Assembly (NCBI GenBank): GCA_036504095.1
Contig: DASXVS010000045.1
Location: forward strand, 62,001-126,000
DNA from: Armatimonadota bacterium
GTDB taxonomy: Bacteria > Armatimonadota > DTGP01 > JAKQQT01
DNA length: 64,000 nucleotides
Reading direction: 5' to 3'
The notes beneath the pieces were generated by a model. The model saw nothing but the letters and a program-made list of their open reading frames with translations. It made no database searches and was not told the DNA's origin. Position numbers and translations under genes: made by a program. This document shows positions 2,006 through 36,891 of the stretch, one piece after another (position 1 is the first letter of the stretch; the number at the start of each line of letters is the position of its first letter).

Positions 2006-2892
2006 ACCGAACGGAACCGGCAGGCGACAGGGTGCGCCGAAGCCTCAACATGCCGTGGAAGGGCGAGTTTCGCCACCCGACCCTGGTGATGGGGATCGTG
2101 AACGTTACCCCGGACTCGTTCCAGTCTGTCGGGCGGCACAACCGACCGATGGATGCGGTGGAACACGGCCTGAGCCTTTTCGCCGACGGAGCCGATATCC
2201 TCGATGTCGGCGGCGAATCCTCGCGTCCGGGCGCGCCCATCGTGCCGGTGGAGGAAGAGCTTGAAAGGGTTATCCCGGTTGTCCAGGGCCTCGCCGAGCG
2301 ATCCTCCGTTCCCATATCGGTTGACACGCGGAAATCGGAGGTTGCGGAAGCGGCCATCCGGGCCGGCGCACGGATCATAAACGACGTATCCGCCGGACGG
2401 TTCGACGCGCACATGTTTCGCGTGGTGGCGGAGTCGGATGCCTTCATCTGCCTGATGCACGGCCCGCTGGACACCACGGCCATGCAATGGTCCACCGCCG
2501 AGGTTCGCCGCGGAGCGGATATCGCCGCAAGTGTCGCGGGATTCCTATCCGCGCGCGCGGAGGCCGCTGTTTCCGGGGGCATCGACGAAGACCGTATATG
2601 GGTAGATCCCGGTTTCGGGTTCGGAAAAACAGTCGGGGACAACCTTCGGCTGATCCGTGACCTGAACCTGATCACCTGCCTCCCATGGCCGGTCATGGTG
2701 GGAACCTCCCGAAAGAGCACACTCGGCGCCGTTCTGAACGGCGCCGCTCCGGAGGATCGCCTCGAGGCGACGCTGGCCACTGTGGCGCTGGCCATTCGAT
2801 CGGGCGCTGCCATCGTTCGCGTACACGACGTGGCGGCCGCTGTTCGAACTGCCCGAACGGCGGATGCTATCGTACATTGCGGGCAACCGTAG
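2002..2892 (+). CDS. folP: Dihydropteroate synthase
   Basis: Condenses p-aminobenzoate with 6-hydroxymethyl-dihydropterin diphosphate in cytosolic folate synthesis. All family signatures appear in order: MGIVNVTPDSF, DVGGESSRPGA, SVDTRK, INDVSAG, VDPGFGFGKT, GTSRKS and the C-terminal RVHDV. The 296-residue protein has a short N-terminal extension of ~30 residues before the first strand; an internal Met at residue 17 is an alternative start. ATGA overlap with mtaB suggests translational coupling. Confidence 0.95.
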   Translation: MNRTEPAGDRVRRSLNMPWKGEFRHPTLVMGIVNVTPDSFQSVGRHNRPMDAVEHGLSLFADGADILDVGGESSRPGAPIVPVEEELERVIPVVQGLAERSSVPISVDTRKSEVAEAAIRAGARIINDVSAGRFDAHMFRVVAESDAFICLMHGPLDTTAMQWSTAEVRRGADIAASVAGFLSARAEAAVSGGIDEDRIWVDPGFGFGKTVGDNLRLIRDLNLITCLPWPVMVGTSRKSTLGAVLNGAAPEDRLEATLATVALAIRSGAAIVRVHDVAAAVRTARTADAIVHCGQP

Positions 2893-2928
2893 TTCAAACG
2901 ATGCCCGATCCACTGTAGGAGGAATCGC

Positions 2929-3783
2929 ATGAACGCATTCAGAGGAATCGCCTGCCTGATTCTTGCTTTGCCTGCCCTCGCCCACGCCGACGATCGTCCC
3001 AGCACACGGACCGGCGATTTTCGAGACTTCCCCGCGTTTGCATCCACGGTTCTTGGGAACGTGCGCAAGGTTACAGTGATGCTGCCGCCGAGTTACGCCG
3101 CCTCGCCGCAGAGGCGCTATCCGGTGCTGTACGCCCATGACCTTCAGAACCTGTTCGATGAAAAGGGGTCGTTCATCGGCAAGGAGTGGCGGCTGGACGA
3201 AACACTGACGCAAATGTGGTCGGCTAAACGCATCCCGGAGATCATCGTGGTGGGTATCGCGAACACCCCGAAGCGTATGTCCGAGTATATGCCCGGGCCG
3301 ACGGGTGACCAGTACGTCAGGTTCATCACCGTTGAACTCAAGCCGTTCATTGACAACCGGTTCCGAACAAAACGGGGGCCCGCCGATACCGCGATGATGG
3401 GGAGCAGCATGGGCGCTCTGATCTCCGTTTGGGGGTCACTCACGAGGCCGGACGTTTTCGGCGGCGCGGCGGGGCTGTCCCCCGCAATGCAATTCGCGGA
3501 TGAGATTCGAACGCGTATGGAGTCCGAGCGTCCATCGCGAATCCACTGGTATCTGGACGTCGGAACCGACGAGATACCCGGAGATGCCGGCCAGCGTTTG
3601 GTGCAGGCGTTCCGCGACGCTCGATCGGCCCTGGTGCAGGGCGGTTACCGCGAAGGTACGGATTTCGTGGCGGAGGTCATTCCCGGCGGGGTACACAACG
3701 AGGTTTCGTGGGCAGCCCGCGTTGACAAACCGCTGGAGTTCCTGTTCGGCGGAAACGACGAGGCTCCCAAGACGCATCGATAG
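2929..3783 (+). CDS. Secreted alpha/beta-hydrolase esterase (enterochelin esterase-like)
   Basis: The N-terminus has a signal peptide ending near the alanine-rich AHA site at residue ~20. The rest matches the putative-esterase fold (Esterase D / IroE / feruloyl-esterase type): YPVLYAHD, then the nucleophile elbow GSSMG (Ser160), and a late GGVHNEVSW segment supplying the likely catalytic His. A strong RBS (AGGAGG, 2917-2922) sits 6 nt before the ATG. Substrate is unknown; esters on plant polysaccharides would fit the hydrolases elsewhere in the window, but that is inference. It ends facing the parvulin gene across a bidirectional hairpin. Confidence 0.8.
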   Translation: MNAFRGIACLILALPALAHADDRPSTRTGDFRDFPAFASTVLGNVRKVTVMLPPSYAASPQRRYPVLYAHDLQNLFDEKGSFIGKEWRLDETLTQMWSAKRIPEIIVVGIANTPKRMSEYMPGPTGDQYVRFITVELKPFIDNRFRTKRGPADTAMMGSSMGALISVWGSLTRPDVFGGAAGLSPAMQFADEIRTRMESERPSRIHWYLDVGTDEIPGDAGQRLVQAFRDARSALVQGGYREGTDFVAEVIPGGVHNEVSWAARVDKPLEFLFGGNDEAPKTHR

Positions 3784-5055: not shown

Positions 5056-5991
5056 CTATGGTTGATAAGGGAGCTGACGCTGAATCGAACAGGCCTTCTC
5101 CGCCTTCGGAAACCAGGTGGAGACTTCCTTCGCGATCCCCTTCTTGCGAGCCAGCGTCTCGTCCATCGCCTTCTTGATGTCGGCCTCGGTTGGCAGAATG
5201 TCCTTGCGCTCCACAACCTCCGCGACGGCGTAACCGCTGCCCAAGCGGAGGATCCGGCGCGATTCCGGACCTGGCTTGGCGGAGAACAGGAAGTCCTCCA
5301 GGGGCTTCTCAACTTGTTCGCGGGTCACAAAGCCGAGATCGCCTCCGTGGCTCCGCGTGCTGACGTCATCGGAGAACTCGAGGCTTACCGCGTCCCAGGT
5401 TTTGCCGGCATCGAGAGCGGCCCGCGCCGCATCGGCCCGTTCCTTCGCGGCGGCTTCCAGACGGCCTCCGAACTCCGCGCCGATGCCTACCAGGGCGATT
5501 CGGGCGCGTACCTTGTGCGCGGCTCGCGTCAGGTCCGCGCGGACCCTCGCCTCTTCGTCGGGGGTGAGCACCGTTTTGGCGGCCTCGTCATCCCCAATCC
5601 GAACGGCCAGCAGGCTATCCCTCTGCTGAGCTTCGATGTTCTTCAGGCCAAATCGGGCTACAAAATTCTGCCAGTCCAGGGGAGTATGCCCTGCCGCGGT
5701 CAGAAATGTCGTCTTGTACTCAAGCATGCGGGTTTGCAGGTCCTCGGGGGAGAGGGTGATCCCGCGCTTGGCGGCCTCATCGAGCAGAATCCGCGACTTG
5801 ATCATGAAATCCAGCGTTACAGCGCCCGATTCACGCCAGAGATGACTGTCAATGGTTGATTTGAGGACTGGAACCCCGTTGACGGTGGCGACAGCGCCCG
5901 GCGGCATGGCGAGCACGGATCCGCAGCCCGCGCACGCGAATAACGTCACCAGGGCACACGAGAACGTTGTAACAGAAACTGGGAGTTTCAA
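5056..5991 (-). CDS. Degenerate parvulin-like exported protein (paralogue of the downstream foldase)
   Basis: 311 residues with the same layout as the downstream gene: signal sequence, SurA-like N-domain (TVNGVPVLKSTIDSHLWRES) and a parvulin-like domain with HGGDLGFV. Both active-site histidines are gone. VHAKHILVG of the paralogue reads VRARIALVG here (His to Ile165), and GLHLIQVV reads GYAVAEVV (His to Ala255). It may be a chaperone without isomerase activity. The LFAC/CAGC end of the signal sequence could be a lipobox, but the fit is imperfect. The TTG start at 5991 was chosen because AGGAG lies 7 nt upstream; an ATG at 6033 lacks an RBS. Confidence 0.8.
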   Translation of the reverse strand: MKLPVSVTTFSCALVTLFACAGCGSVLAMPPGAVATVNGVPVLKSTIDSHLWRESGAVTLDFMIKSRILLDEAAKRGITLSPEDLQTRMLEYKTTFLTAAGHTPLDWQNFVARFGLKNIEAQQRDSLLAVRIGDDEAAKTVLTPDEEARVRADLTRAAHKVRARIALVGIGAEFGGRLEAAAKERADAARAALDAGKTWDAVSLEFSDDVSTRSHGGDLGFVTREQVEKPLEDFLFSAKPGPESRRILRLGSGYAVAEVVERKDILPTEADIKKAMDETLARKKGIAKEVSTWFPKAEKACSIQRQLPYQP

Positions 5992-7271: not shown

Positions 7272-7323
7272 GGATGAGCGCGGACCGAGACGGTCGGCGC
7301 TTATCCGCGTATGGAGGTTGAAT

Positions 7324-7890
7324 TTGGCGATTGACACAAGCGATTTCAAGAACGGCCTGAGTATCCATCTGGAAGGCAAAATCTATCAGATCGTGGAGTT
7401 TCAGCACGTGAAGCCCGGCAAAGGCCCGGCCTTTGTGCGCACCAAACTGCGCGAGGTCCGGATGGGCAGCGTGATCGAGAAGACGTTCCGCGCCGGAGAG
7501 AAGATGGAACAGGCCATCCTCGAACGAAAGTCAATGCAGTATCTCTATGGGACCGGCAGCGCCTATGTTTTCATGGATACCGAGGACTACGAGCAGACCG
7601 AGATCTCGGCCGCCACACTCGGATCACAGGTTAAGTACCTGAAGGAAAGCATGGAAGTCTCGGTCCTGACGCACAACGGCGATGTGCTAGGCGTTGAGCT
7701 TCCCGTTTCGGTGGAACTTGAGATCGCCGAGACCGATCCCGGCCTTCGGGGCGACACCGCCAGTGGCGGTGGCAAACCCGCCACGCTGGAGACAGGCGCG
7801 GTAGTCACTGTTCCTTTGTTCCTCAACGTCGGCGACAAGGTCAAGGTTGATACCCGCACGGACCAGTATCTTGGCCGCGTGACCGGCTGA
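7324..7890 (+). CDS. efp: Elongation factor P
   Basis: Binds between the ribosomal P and E sites and relieves stalling at polyproline. 188 residues, the normal size. The KOW-like N-domain begins AIDTSDFKNGLSIHLEG; the tip loop reads VKPGKGPAFVRTK with K33 as the probable modified residue, so this is a lysine-type EF-P. The C-terminal domain has DVLGVELPVSVELEI and ends KVDTRTDQYLGRV. The start is TTG, supported by GGAGG 6 nt upstream and by alignment with the family N-terminus. In Firmicutes and Cyanobacteria efp is often followed by accB; here the third gene of the cluster is AccB-like. Confidence 0.95.
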   Translation: MAIDTSDFKNGLSIHLEGKIYQIVEFQHVKPGKGPAFVRTKLREVRMGSVIEKTFRAGEKMEQAILERKSMQYLYGTGSAYVFMDTEDYEQTEISAATLGSQVKYLKESMEVSVLTHNGDVLGVELPVSVELEIAETDPGLRGDTASGGGKPATLETGAVVTVPLFLNVGDKVKVDTRTDQYLGRVTG

Positions 7891-7936: not shown

Positions 7937-9088
7937 ATGTCCGTCAAACGACCCGCCTCAACTGACCGCAGACCGCGGCGATCACGATCCGCGGCGGACA
8001 TTGCCAACGACGTCCTCGCGCTGATTGCGCGGCTGGCGGCGCTGGTCTTCATCGCGTCCCTTGCCTACATGGCCTATGCCGCGTACGGTGGCCCTCTTTC
8101 TCAGTACCCCAACACATTCGACCCGGCGCTGTCGAAACAACTGACCCACAACGTCCAGGTTGCCTCCCAGGCGATGCTGATCTCGGGCGTTGTCGGTTCG
8201 CTCAGCCTGGTCGCCCTCCTTTGGGGCTGGGACTGGGGCTGGATTCTGTTCGCGATTGCCGGCGGCCTCCTGTACGCGGCGCTGCCATACTTCGCTGTCC
8301 CGTTTCTCTCCGAAGCATCCCGCAGCATGGTTCGGCAGAACCATCCGGGCGCCGATATTCTGGCTGCTTGGCGGACGACCGGGTTGGCGCTTCTCAGCGC
8401 AGGCGGCCTTCTTCTGGCGGGCTGGATAGGGGAGCGGTTACAGGATTCGCTGGCGGCGCCGAGGCGCGCTGGCAGCCGCCTGAAGGTTCCATTTTACAGC
8501 TCGTGCTGGCAAACGCATTACTGCAAGGACGAGATCAACAAACTGTGCATGCCGGGGCGCAACGGCTACCACAAGTCTTGCTGGCGCTATAAGAGCGGCT
8601 GTATCTGCGACGAGAGCATTGCGGACAAGGTTTTCGCCGAGGCGCGGCAGAAAATGGGAAAAGACGCGGCGAAGTGGCTGGGCGCCCCGGGCAAAGCCCC
8701 CGCTCCGACGTTAGCTGACCGGTTCAAATCGACCTATCACAAAGCTCCGTATCAGAAGGTCGCCTGCGCCGACTGTCCCATCTACAATTTCCATGAGGTC
8801 CAGAAGCACAAGATTCTGGCACCGCTCACCCTGGTTGGCGTTCCCGCGCTTATGCTGTACGAGGCGGATGCGCTGCACGCGTGGTATGCGAGGGCGATGG
8901 CGTCAATCGACAAAGTTACGCTGCGCCTGGCGTTCGACCCAGCGCATACGTCCATAGTTCGATCACAGATTCGCGGCGCGCTCGACATCCCCCTCATGGA
9001 ATGGGTAACCTTTGGGCTTGCCGCGCTCGCGCTGATCACCCTGGCGGCCCGAATTCTTGAATACTGGTGTTTTGAGGCCAAACTGTAG
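7937..9088 (+). CDS. Unknown polytopic membrane protein with an eight-cysteine domain
   Basis: Family not recognised. 383 residues with a basic N-terminus (SVKRPASTDRRPRR) and about six hydrophobic segments (~25-50, 78-98, 102-124, 145-165, 292-310, 355-375). Between segments 4 and 5 lies a soluble region (~170-290) with eight cysteines: C190, C196, C204, C215, C222, C224, C277 and C280, in patterns such as CWRYKSGCIC and CADC. Their spacing suggests an Fe-S or zinc site or disulfides, depending on topology. It lies 46 nt after efp and 15 nt before the AccB-like gene on the same strand. The RBS is weak. Confidence 0.72.
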   Translation: MSVKRPASTDRRPRRSRSAADIANDVLALIARLAALVFIASLAYMAYAAYGGPLSQYPNTFDPALSKQLTHNVQVASQAMLISGVVGSLSLVALLWGWDWGWILFAIAGGLLYAALPYFAVPFLSEASRSMVRQNHPGADILAAWRTTGLALLSAGGLLLAGWIGERLQDSLAAPRRAGSRLKVPFYSSCWQTHYCKDEINKLCMPGRNGYHKSCWRYKSGCICDESIADKVFAEARQKMGKDAAKWLGAPGKAPAPTLADRFKSTYHKAPYQKVACADCPIYNFHEVQKHKILAPLTLVGVPALMLYEADALHAWYARAMASIDKVTLRLAFDPAHTSIVRSQIRGALDIPLMEWVTFGLAALALITLAARILEYWCFEAKL

Positions 9089-9103: not shown

Positions 9104-9532
9104 TTGCGAATTGAGACGATTGATGAACTGGCGGACGTTCTCGCCCAGTCCGAGCTTGCGAGCCTGGAATTGGAGGCTGATTCCTGGAGCATTACCCTCG
9201 AACGCGGCGCCGTCGCCCCTCGACTCGCCGCACCGGAAGCCGGGCCCGCGCCGGTTGATCACAGCGCCCCGGTGGGCGCCTCGCATACGGCCGAAGCCGA
9301 CGCGATTGTTGAAGCCGCGGTTGTCGGCGTGTTTCACGAGGCTGCGCCTCAGGTGACGCTGGGGCAGGCCGTACGTGCCGGCGATCTGCTGGGGACGATC
9401 GACGCACTCACGATTCGCAACGATGTTCGCGCCGATTCCGATGGCGAGGTGTTGGCGGTGCACGTCGAGGACGGCCAGCCGGTTGAATACGGGCAACCAT
9501 TGTTTTCCCTGAGTTGCCACGGAGGACGGTAA
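9104..9532 (+). CDS. AccB-like protein without the biotinylation lysine
   Basis: 142 residues. The N-terminus (RIETIDELADVLAQSELASL) resembles the AccB N-domain, a Pro/Ala linker follows, and the C-terminal barrel ends VEDGQPVEYGQPLF, close to genuine BCCP. The hairpin that should read EAMKL-x-NEI reads DALTIRNDV: the biotinylated Lys is Thr, in the codon series GCA-CTC-ACG-ATT. It therefore cannot be biotinylated at that site. The upstream PMVG turn is also changed (EAAVVG). TTG start with GAGGAG 7 nt upstream; its stop overlaps the next ATG by one base. No accC is adjacent. Possibly a structural or regulatory paralogue; another AccB is expected elsewhere in the genome. Confidence 0.82.
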   Translation: MRIETIDELADVLAQSELASLELEADSWSITLERGAVAPRLAAPEAGPAPVDHSAPVGASHTAEADAIVEAAVVGVFHEAAPQVTLGQAVRAGDLLGTIDALTIRNDVRADSDGEVLAVHVEDGQPVEYGQPLFSLSCHGGR

Positions 9533-9924
9533 TGAACCACAGGTCCGCGCAACGCGGCGAAGGCATGCTGGGGCTTTTGATTGTCGCAGTGCTCATCGCT
9601 GTGGGGTTTTTCCTGTATTTCCGCCTTCAGAAGCCCGAGCCCGCGCCGATACGTCCCGGGGGTCCGACCACCTACCTGGGACAGAGCCTCGAAAAGGGTA
9701 CAGAAGTAGACTGCCGCAACAATCTCAATCAGATTCGCGTGGCCATCACCATGGCCCGGACCCAATCCGGCGAGACCGAACCACCGCCGGCTACGCTGCC
9801 GTCGCTGCGCAGTCAGGGAATCGGCCCGCAAATGCTTAAGTGCCCCGTGACACAGCAGCCGTACCAATACAACGCCCAAACGGGCCAGGTCTGGTGCCCA
9901 ACACCAGGTCACGAAAAGTTCTAG
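9532..9924 (+). CDS. Small single-span protein resembling a pseudopilin
   Basis: 130 residues. A basic start (NHRSAQRGEG) is followed at once by a hydrophobic helix (MLGLLIVAVLIAVGFFLYF), as in type IV pilin or pseudopilin N-termini, but the conserved Glu5 of pilins is missing. The periplasmic part has NNLNQIRVAI and a C-terminal CPVTQQPYQYNAQTGQVWC segment like pseudopilin ends, with a probable disulfide. Start ATG with GGAGGA upstream, overlapping the previous stop by 1 nt, so it is translationally coupled to the AccB-like gene. Function unknown. Confidence 0.7.
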   Translation: MNHRSAQRGEGMLGLLIVAVLIAVGFFLYFRLQKPEPAPIRPGGPTTYLGQSLEKGTEVDCRNNLNQIRVAITMARTQSGETEPPPATLPSLRSQGIGPQMLKCPVTQQPYQYNAQTGQVWCPTPGHEKF

Positions 9925-26424: not shown

Positions 26425-26991
26425 ATGACACCCATATACGCATCGGCCCGGTCCCGGGCCATTTCAGTCCGTTGGCCGGCCTACCTTCTCAAGCTGCTCC
26501 TGGCCAGTTGGGGGATCGCACTGGCCGCCCATTTCCGCGTAGTCCTTCCCTGGAGCCCCGTTCCGATCACCGGTCAGACACTCGCAGTGGCGATCGTCGG
26601 CCTCTCGTTCGGGCCCGCGATGGCCTTCCAGGCCGTGTGCGCCTACCTTCTGCAGGGCGCCGCCAGCCTCCCGGTGTTCGCCGGATCGAGCGCGGGGATC
26701 GCTGCGTTGACCGGCGCCACGGCCGGATACCTTGCGGCGATGCCGTTTGCCGCGTCAGCCGCGTCCGCACTCAGCCGCAGGGGGGCGAAATCGTACCCGA
26801 TAGCCGTCCTGGCGGCGTGGCTGAGTTCCGCCATCGTGCTTCTCGCGGGAACGCTGTGGCTTTCGCATTTCGTTCACGGATTCCGCGCCGCTCTCTGGGC
26901 GGGCCTCTATCCGTTCCTCCCCGGGGAGGCGATCAAAGGTGTCGTAGCCGCGGGGTCGGTCGCCGGAATCCGGCGCCTGCGCCGCAGGTAG
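26425..26991 (+). CDS. bioY: Biotin transporter S component BioY
   Basis: Substrate-binding membrane subunit for biotin uptake, working with an ECF module or alone. 188 residues with ~6 hydrophobic helices. Family signatures: PWSPVPITGQTLAV near the start, LQGAASLPVFAG, TGATAGYL and the C-terminal FLPGEAIKGVVAA. No EcfA/T genes are adjacent. It would supply biotin for acetyl-CoA carboxylase, whose AccD and AccA are encoded ~8 kb away. A TTG 24 nt upstream is another possible start. Confidence 0.87.
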   Translation: MTPIYASARSRAISVRWPAYLLKLLLASWGIALAAHFRVVLPWSPVPITGQTLAVAIVGLSFGPAMAFQAVCAYLLQGAASLPVFAGSSAGIAALTGATAGYLAAMPFAASAASALSRRGAKSYPIAVLAAWLSSAIVLLAGTLWLSHFVHGFRAALWAGLYPFLPGEAIKGVVAAGSVAGIRRLRRR

Positions 26992-34510: not shown

Positions 34511-34891
34511 ATGACGTTACTGTCCATACTGAAGAGCAAGATACACAGGGCTACCGTTACGGATTGCTGCATCGACTATGTGGGAAGTGTGGGTATTGAC
34601 GAGGACCTGATGGAGCGGACCGAACTGCAGCCCAACGAACACGTGCATGTGTGGAACGTAACAAACGGCGCGCGGCTTGAAACCTATGTAATCCCGTGTC
34701 CGCGCGGATCGGGCGTGATCTCCTTGAACGGCGCCGCCGCCCATCACGCGAAGGTGGGCGACAAGGTGATCATCGCATCGTTCTGCCTGACGGATGCGCC
34801 GTCCAAGCCCAAGATGGTGCTTGTGGACGAAAACAACCGGTTTGCGTCATGGCTCGATTCGGAGCCGCCGTTGACGGCTTTGGAGGTCTGA
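34511..34891 (+). CDS. panD: Aspartate 1-decarboxylase
   Basis: Pyruvoyl enzyme making beta-alanine for pantothenate and CoA. 126 residues. The self-processing Gly-Ser is in IDYVGSVGID; SKIHRATVTD, HVWNVTNGARLETY, ISLNGAAAHHAKVGDKVIIASF are the conserved segments. ATG at 34511 fits the family N-terminus; GTG at 34499 is also open. Two nt separate it from accD, linking CoA precursor synthesis to fatty-acid synthesis. Confidence 0.94.
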   Translation: MTLLSILKSKIHRATVTDCCIDYVGSVGIDEDLMERTELQPNEHVHVWNVTNGARLETYVIPCPRGSGVISLNGAAAHHAKVGDKVIIASFCLTDAPSKPKMVLVDENNRFASWLDSEPPLTALEV

Positions 34892-34893
34892 AC

Positions 34894-35739
34894 GTGGCTG
34901 AAGGCTGGTTTGGAAAGAGATTCAAACGCGACGAAGTGCGGCAGCGCATCGCGGATGTGGCTGAAGGCATGTGGGACAAGTGTCCCAGATGTGGCGAGAT
35001 CCAGTACAGCGCGGAACTCGTGCGGAACTGGAAGGTCTGCAAGAAATGCGCGTTTCACTTCCGGCTCACGGCGCAGGAGCGTATTGATCTTCTCGCGGAT
35101 GAGCCCGAGGCCTTCGAGCGCTGGGATGAGGACCTGACCACGGTGAACCCGCTCGCGTTTCCTCTTTACCTCGAGAAACTCGAGGGGCATAAGGAGAAGA
35201 CGGGCTTGTCCGAGGCCATCGTCACCGGCGAGGCCCGCATCGGGGGTGTTACCGTGGCGCTTGGCATCACGGATCCTCATTTCAAGATGGGCACGATGAA
35301 CAGCGTGGTGGGCGAGCGCATCGCATTGTGCGCGGAGCGTGCGATCGACCGGCGGATCCCGCTGGTGCTGGTATGCGGCAGTGGCGGCGGCGCGCGCATG
35401 GAGGAAGGGATCCTCAGCCTGATGCAGATGGCAAAGACGTCCGCCGTGCTTGGCCGGTTCAAAGCCGAAACCCGCTCGTTCTACATTTCCGTTCTCACCG
35501 ACCCTTCCATGGGCGGCACGTTGGCGAGTTGGGCCAGCCTGGGCCACGTTGCCTATGCCGAACCCGGTGCGATGATCGGGTTCGCCGGACAGCGCGTATC
35601 GGCGCAGGTACAGAGCGGGAAGGTGCCTGCAAACTACCAGTCCAGCGAGTTCCAGTTGGAGCACGGGCAGGCTGACGCCATCGTTCATCGCAAGGACCTT
35701 AAGGATACCATCGCCCGTACGTTGCAGTGGGCCGCATAG
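34894..35739 (+). CDS. accD: Acetyl-CoA carboxylase carboxyltransferase subunit beta
   Basis: Transfers the carboxyl group from carboxybiotin to acetyl-CoA together with AccA. 281 residues. The N-terminal zinc ribbon is CPRCGEIQYSAEL...VCKKC; the crotonase-like core has ITDPHFKMGTMNSVVGER, SGGGARMEEGILSLMQMAKT, SDPSMGGT-like TDPSMGGTLAS and IGFAGQRV. The GTG start has GGAGG 7 nt upstream, inside the end of panD. Confidence 0.95.
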   Translation: MAEGWFGKRFKRDEVRQRIADVAEGMWDKCPRCGEIQYSAELVRNWKVCKKCAFHFRLTAQERIDLLADEPEAFERWDEDLTTVNPLAFPLYLEKLEGHKEKTGLSEAIVTGEARIGGVTVALGITDPHFKMGTMNSVVGERIALCAERAIDRRIPLVLVCGSGGGARMEEGILSLMQMAKTSAVLGRFKAETRSFYISVLTDPSMGGTLASWASLGHVAYAEPGAMIGFAGQRVSAQVQSGKVPANYQSSEFQLEHGQADAIVHRKDLKDTIARTLQWAA

Positions 35740-35844: not shown

Positions 35845-36891
35845 ATGTTGAAAAACGCCCTCGATTTTGAGAAGCCAATCGCCGAACTTGACGCGGAGAT
35901 GGTGAGCATCCAGGCCCAACTGCAGGACGGCGGCCTGGAACAATGGTGCCGAGACCACGGCCGCGACTACGCCGCGGAATTTGCGAAACTGGACGCGGGC
36001 CTGCAGCAACTCAAACGTGACCGGGAGCGCCTCATGAAAGACATCTTCAGCAAGCTGACGCCTTGGGAAAAAACACAAGTTGCGCGACATCGCGACCGCC
36101 CTCATACGGTTGACATGATCCGCCTTCTTTGCGAGGACTTCCTGGAGCTTCACGGCGATCGCCAATACGCGGATGATGCCGCCATCCTTGGCGGAATCGC
36201 CCGTATTGCGGGGCGCGACGTGCTGGTCCTGGGGCATGAAAAAGGCCGGGATCTCAAGGAGAAGGTGCGCCGGAATTACGGCAGCGCGAAGCCCGAAGGC
36301 TATCGCAAGGCCGTTCGCCTGATGAAGCTTGCCGAGCGCGCGCGAAAGCCCGTCGTCGTATTTGTGGACACCAGCGCCGCGGACTCTTCGCTGGGGTCCG
36401 AAGAACGCGGCATCAGCGAGGCGATCGCAAAGGCGATGGAAGAGATGGCCATGCTGAAGACCCCGACCGTAGTGGTTGTGCTGGGCGAGGGCGGCAGCGG
36501 CGGCGCCATCGGACTCGGGGTGGGGGATCGGATCCTCATGCTCGAACACGCGATATACTCGGTCATCCCGCCTGAAGGCTGCGCCAATATACTCTGGCGC
36601 GACGCGGCCAAGGCGGACCAGGCGGCCGATGCCCTGAAACTGACCGCCCAGGACGCCCTGCGCCTCGGCGTGATCGATGAAGTCCTGCCGGAACCGCTCG
36701 GCGGCGCCCATAGAAGCCCAGAGCTTACGGCCCTTGCTGTGAAAGATGCCGTGGTGGCCGCCCTCGATACCCTTGCCGAATTGTCCTGCGAGGACCTGCT
36801 GCGCGAACGATATGAGAAATTCCGGCGAATGGGCCAGTGGTCGCTTCCTGATGCTCCTCTGGTAGCGGATGGCTTGACGGCCGTCGGATAA
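35845..36891 (+). CDS. accA: Acetyl-CoA carboxylase carboxyltransferase subunit alpha
   Basis: Partner of AccD. 348 residues. N-terminal ALDFEKPIAELDAEM helix, then VARHRDRPHTVDMIRLL, GDRQYADDAAILGGIAR, GHEKGRD, the CoA/biotin region YRKAVRLMKLAE, FVDTSAAD and GEGGSGGAIGLGVGDR, and PEGCANILWRDA. It follows accD after 105 bp, the usual order. No AccB or AccC gene is nearby; the only AccB-like gene in the window lacks its lysine. Confidence 0.95.
   Translation: MLKNALDFEKPIAELDAEMVSIQAQLQDGGLEQWCRDHGRDYAAEFAKLDAGLQQLKRDRERLMKDIFSKLTPWEKTQVARHRDRPHTVDMIRLLCEDFLELHGDRQYADDAAILGGIARIAGRDVLVLGHEKGRDLKEKVRRNYGSAKPEGYRKAVRLMKLAERARKPVVVFVDTSAADSSLGSEERGISEAIAKAMEEMAMLKTPTVVVVLGEGGSGGAIGLGVGDRILMLEHAIYSVIPPEGCANILWRDAAKADQAADALKLTAQDALRLGVIDEVLPEPLGGAHRSPELTALAVKDAVVAALDTLAELSCEDLLRERYEKFRRMGQWSLPDAPLVADGLTAVG

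Follow-up and report, generated by a model that had tools for sequence, protein, structure and literature searches.

We propose that in Armatimonadota and in many Chloroflexota the AccB protein (BCCP) of acetyl-CoA carboxylase has been divided between a biotin carrier and a structural partner that is not biotinylated, the latter having an assembly role like that of BADC, a plant BCCP paralogue that is 25–30% identical to BCCP, has no AMKL and bridges BC and BCCP (PMC11926652). From the sequence comparisons described below we regard this as a fairly probable explanation. The lysine-less copy would, by analogy with BADC, probably be a non-catalytic subunit of the carboxylase. The broader proposal, that the two AccB paralogues form an obligate pair that arose in both phyla by ancient duplication and complementary loss, giving a bacterial BADC-type subunit independent of plants, is put forward more tentatively. 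The starting point was an accB-like gene in a stretch of 64,000 nucleotides from an Armatimonadota genome (the window).

The accB-like gene and the carboxylase genes of its genome

The accB-like gene sits outside any acc operon, between efp, a membrane-protein gene and a pilin-like gene. The features considered in the window, all on the forward strand, are:

7321–7890, forward: efp, elongation factor P (NF001810/TIGR00038; start codon not settled)
7937–9088, forward: Cys-rich membrane protein, 383 aa, with eight invariant cysteines; a recurrent neighbour in Armatimonadota
9104–9532, forward: lysine-less accB-like gene, 142 aa (TIGR00531, E 5e-20; PF00364; BCCP fold; Thr103; zero Lys)
9110–9202, forward: N-terminal AccB domain, helix 3–15 and hairpin 20–33 (AlphaFold2 pLDDT about 92; alignment with the N-terminus of E. 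coli AccB)
9410–9412, forward: ACG codon of Thr103, where AccB has its biotinylated lysine (by alignment)
9482–9496, forward: VEYGQ motif, residues 127–131, nearly invariant among the paralogues and missing in the biotin-bearing copy
9532–9924, forward: pilin-like protein, 130 aa, with one N-terminal hydrophobic segment; a recurrent neighbour
26554–26973, forward: matched stretch of bioY (PF02632, E 4e-30)
34696–35739, forward: accD (TIGR00515, E 8e-91), about 25 kb from the accB-like gene
35845–36891, forward: accA (TIGR00513, E 3e-117)

The accB-like ORF begins at a TTG preceded by GAGGAG, its stop codon overlaps the next ATG (TAATG), and it encodes the full AccB architecture of N-terminal domain, linker and biotinyl barrel. 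A first-pass annotation, made from the sequence alone, had reported that both ends of the protein match AccB, and this is borne out by a match to the BCCP model TIGR00531 over residues 2–135 (72.5 bits, below the curated cut-off of 115.2), by PF00364 (Biotin_lipoyl) and by the E. coli AccB of PDB 4hr7 (E 5e-11). The AlphaFold2 model (pLDDT 87.7) adopts the BCCP fold, in which a linker of low confidence joins the N-terminal helix and hairpin to the biotinyl barrel, and its nearest PDB structures according to Foldseek are 1bdo (best) and 4hr7. The protein thus has the barrel and the N-terminal domain of an AccB, and it has neither the biotinylated lysine of the E-[AS]-M-K motif nor the thumb loop (18 residues between flanking glycines, FYRxPxP), as its thumb is shortened.

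The biotin hairpin reads IDALTIRND, with Thr103 at the lysine site as the annotation had it, and there is no lysine anywhere else in the protein, so that neither biotinylation nor lipoylation on a lysine is possible and biotin on a different lysine is ruled out. The nearest relative in the sample (G001), of the same family and from a separate assembly, also has threonine (IEALTLLSE). This agrees with the earlier opinion that a single-base error does not explain the substitution and, together with the open ORFs found phylum-wide, rules out both a sequencing error and a pseudogene.

The window genome (4.68 Mb, 98.6% complete) encodes one normal AccB on another contig (G000:C53, hairpin IMAMKVMSE), next to an apparent homoserine dehydrogenase gene (by reading), and one AccC and one BirA (biotin ligase), both also outside the window. 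It therefore contains a BCCP paralogue without AMKL in addition to a normal BCCP, as described for BADC-type proteins. The prediction that carboxylation can use another carrier is supported by these three genes, and the recognition of AccA, AccD and BioY in the window by the family matches listed above. A second accB is present, but it does not adjoin accC as had been anticipated.

Distribution of the paralogue and complementary loss of motifs

The paralogue was found in 39 of the 41 Armatimonadota genomes sampled, from some 25 families, and it usually adjoins efp. The residue at the lysine site varies (Gly in 15, Lys in 11, Arg in 6, Thr in 3 and others in four), the replacements comprising Gly, Arg, Thr, Gln, Asn, Asp, Ser and His. 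Lysine is absent from 28/39 paralogues and present in 34/34 canonical copies, and its loss is no local accident. VEYGQ and the core glycines are nearly invariant in the paralogue, and its thumb is shortened in most Armatimonadota members (median 13 residues), while the canonical copies keep 18. A tree of 74 AccBs places the paralogues on one side of a branch (support 90/77) and the canonical copies on one side of another (99/90). We considered whether the paralogue could be the sole AccB of some genomes, and rejected this because G002, G006, G016, G029 and G033 each have a second, lysine-bearing copy. The 11 efp-type paralogues that keep the lysine are those of loci L038, L039, L042, L046, L050, L057, L059, L072, L073, L074 and L081; as a second lysine-bearing AccB is encoded as well, some of these genomes may have two biotinylable AccBs.

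To compare the copies, each of 81 genomes was scored for the biotin lysine and for a C-terminal motif of the VEY type, V[EQDG][YFW]. One copy with lysine and no VEY was accompanied by another with VEY and no lysine in 56 of them (27 Armatimonadota and 29 Chloroflexota). Ten Armatimonadota genomes have lysine in both copies and VEY in the paralogue only, ten Chloroflexota genomes have a single AccB with both features, and five genomes fall outside these patterns, either because single copies were found or because the motif was borderline. Seen by copy, VEY is present in 55/55 lysine-less proteins and absent from the biotinylable ones in 34/34 Armatimonadota and, single-AccB genomes apart, in 29/29 other Chloroflexota. 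The pattern used to retrieve the outgroup AccBs included VEYG, which they therefore have by construction (E. coli has VEFDE), so they are not independent support; the single-copy Chloroflexota AccBs were found by whole-protein search and do count as such. Chloroflexota L212–L217, L221 and L224, with both lysine and VEYGQ in a single AccB, are natural controls for the two-copy state.

When 84,980 species genomes were scanned with the paralogue alignment, the best 80 matches looked at contained AccBs with the normal EAMK from many phyla; lysine-less AccBs among them came only from Armatimonadota, Chloroflexota and a few phylum-unnamed records close to Armatimonadota loci. A search of 61 Chloroflexota genomes revealed the same two-copy pattern. 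The lysine is lost in 27 Chloroflexota copies; since a query without the lysine was used to find these genomes, this share is not a census. Most of the lysine-less copies have efp adjacent, frequently along with xseA. In five genomes (L240, L244, L250, L259 and L268), the lysine-less copy lies inside an acc operon, which in L240 is arranged as follows:

105–827: accD
824–1798: accA
1795–2259: lysine-less copy
2259–3623: accC
after accC: fabZ and fabF (by reading)
5436–5861: normal AccB, followed by fabH

The order accD-accA-copy-accC, with genes overlapping or tightly spaced, is found in L240 and L259, and L268 is alike with accC interrupted by N. In L244 and L250 one gene separates the copy from accC (FabD-like by reading in L244). 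A normal AccB lies downstream in L240, L244, L250 and L268, four of the five stretches fetched. In these five Chloroflexota genomes, unlike the window genome, the lysine-less copy thus lies in the acc operon, which may point to a link with biotin carboxylase, and this placement is the most direct genomic indication that the copy would work with the carboxylase. The annotation had proposed that the window locus lost its chemistry. The lysine is indeed gone, but that description stops short, as the complementary motif loss and the Chloroflexota acc operons point to a carboxylase subunit.

Origin of the pair and alternative explanations

A combined tree of 164 rows was poorly resolved; when the Armatimonadota and Chloroflexota paralogues were constrained to a single clade, the likelihood was better than that of the unconstrained search (p-AU 0.77). 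One old duplication for both phyla is therefore compatible with the sequences, allowed rather than proven given a short alignment and a root that is not settled. On a tree with the paralogues of both phyla together the lysine state changes at least nine times, suggesting that the lysine was probably lost repeatedly. It is also plausible, as first suggested, that the efp locus is the ancestral accB locus, since it has retained both VEYGQ and the linkage to efp, although the tree gives it no firm root.

The sequences show a duplicated AccB throughout Armatimonadota and in much of the Chloroflexota sample; one copy remains biotinylable and retains the thumb, having lost VEYGQ, and the other retains the N-terminal domain, the barrel and VEYGQ, usually without the lysine and often without the thumb. 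According to our proposal, the lysine-less copy would bind AccC and/or biotinylated AccB through its N-terminal domain and VEYGQ face, and in the resulting complex with two kinds of AccB one would swing the biotin and the other hold the assembly together, as BADC would in plant plastids. As the features are divided between the duplicated carriers, the copies are expected to work as a pair. The complementary loss and the BADC precedent lead us to propose a non-catalytic AccB partner, for which assembly is more likely than inhibition. A regulatory decoy, which would compete with biotinylated AccB for AccC and lower carboxylase activity when needed, would also be without lysine and keep the N-terminal domain, and inhibition has been proposed for BADC in plants (PMC11926652, PMC7712654). 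We consider it unlikely, because a dispensable inhibitor would leave unexplained both the loss of VEYGQ from the biotinylated copy in every tabulated two-copy genome and the tight arrangement with accA and accC seen in certain Chloroflexota. We favour an obligate role in assembly rather than inhibition alone, since the motif that the normal copy has lost is retained in single-copy Chloroflexota AccBs, as though the normal copy relied on a partner. A drifting, functionless duplicate could account for the variable lysine site, but the ORF is open in 39/41 genomes from so many families, VEYGQ and the core glycines are nearly invariant and the gene overlaps the next one, and we find this very improbable.

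The neighbouring genes at the efp locus raise another alternative. Of the 39 Armatimonadota paralogues, 27 have efp nearby, 31 the pilin-like gene and 18 a Cys-rich membrane gene detectable by BLAST, so the latter two genes recur phylum-wide and are not the recently gained neighbours that they had been taken for. The Cys-rich protein has no Pfam or NCBIfam match. Its invariant cysteines (C190, C196, C204, C215, C222, C224, C277 and C280 in the window protein) suggest metal binding, and the AlphaFold2 model is poor in this region (pLDDT about 40). In this efp-linked Armatimonadota family the cysteines are located on a soluble loop (CWx4C, CP, CWR, GCxC, CxxCxIY), and homologues occur at L037, L039, L043, L044, L046, L049, L052–L054, L056, L058–L060, L066, L098 and L101. 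The pilin-like family (the window member and 30 homologous loci) is marked by a single hydrophobic segment at the N-terminus and mostly has a paired-Cys C-terminus ending like CPxPGHEKY; several members have a prepilin-like SLxE motif, but not the window one.

It could be that the lysine-less protein has left the carboxylase and become an adaptor for an envelope system that includes these two proteins, as the pilin-like gene comes next in most Armatimonadota loci, the Cys-rich gene is detected in many of them, and the window gene is coupled to the former through TAATG. This seems to us somewhat less likely than the decoy: in Chloroflexota the relatives are flanked by efp and xseA or belong to an acc operon and, in the loci read, neither gene was seen beside them, the AccB N-terminal domain is kept, and the window protein has no predicted membrane segment. 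We therefore keep to the assembly partner, with the Cys-rich membrane and pilin-like proteins as putative partners in Armatimonadota. A speculative possibility, by analogy with CTI, the membrane anchor of the carboxylase in plastids (PMC7712654), is that they might anchor the carboxylase to the membrane.

Comparison with known systems

The window protein resembles bacterial AccB/BCCP (TIGR00531) in domain order, fold, N-terminal domain, VEYGQ-like C-terminus and efp linkage, and differs from it in having no biotinylable lysine, a shortened thumb and a score under the family cut-off. AccE, the epsilon subunit, is unrelated to BCCP in fold and gene and is not a BCCP paralogue. The proposed likeness lies in its being a small non-catalytic subunit that helps assembly, as described for the actinobacterial acyl-CoA carboxylases (PMC3199775, PMC11926652). 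In the Chloroflexota, BC1 of Chloroflexus aurantiacus is a carboxylase component whose BCCP part also drives assembly (a tetramer), but it is a BC-BCCP fusion with a biotinylated lysine, K553 (PMC11077971), and not a separate lysine-less protein. We have found no earlier report of a non-biotinylated bacterial AccB in the open-licence literature searched. If our proposal is true, the ACC of Armatimonadota and many Chloroflexota would differ in subunit composition from the E. coli model, and genes named accB by similarity in both phyla may be the copy unable to carry biotin, which calls for caution in annotation.

Plant BADC was described in 2025 as unique to the plant enzyme, and is called a glue by some authors and an inhibitor by others (PMC11926652). 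The present copy differs from it in being bacterial and linked to efp or to an acc operon, probably with an independent origin, and BADC was compared here by description only. Both are BCCP paralogues without the AMKL lysine that exist beside a normal BCCP, and the lysine-less copy is likewise a predicted partner of BC and BCCP. With this same layout, relatives that naturally have one copy and motifs cleanly divided between the copies, the bacterial system would allow the question of glue versus inhibitor to be tested.
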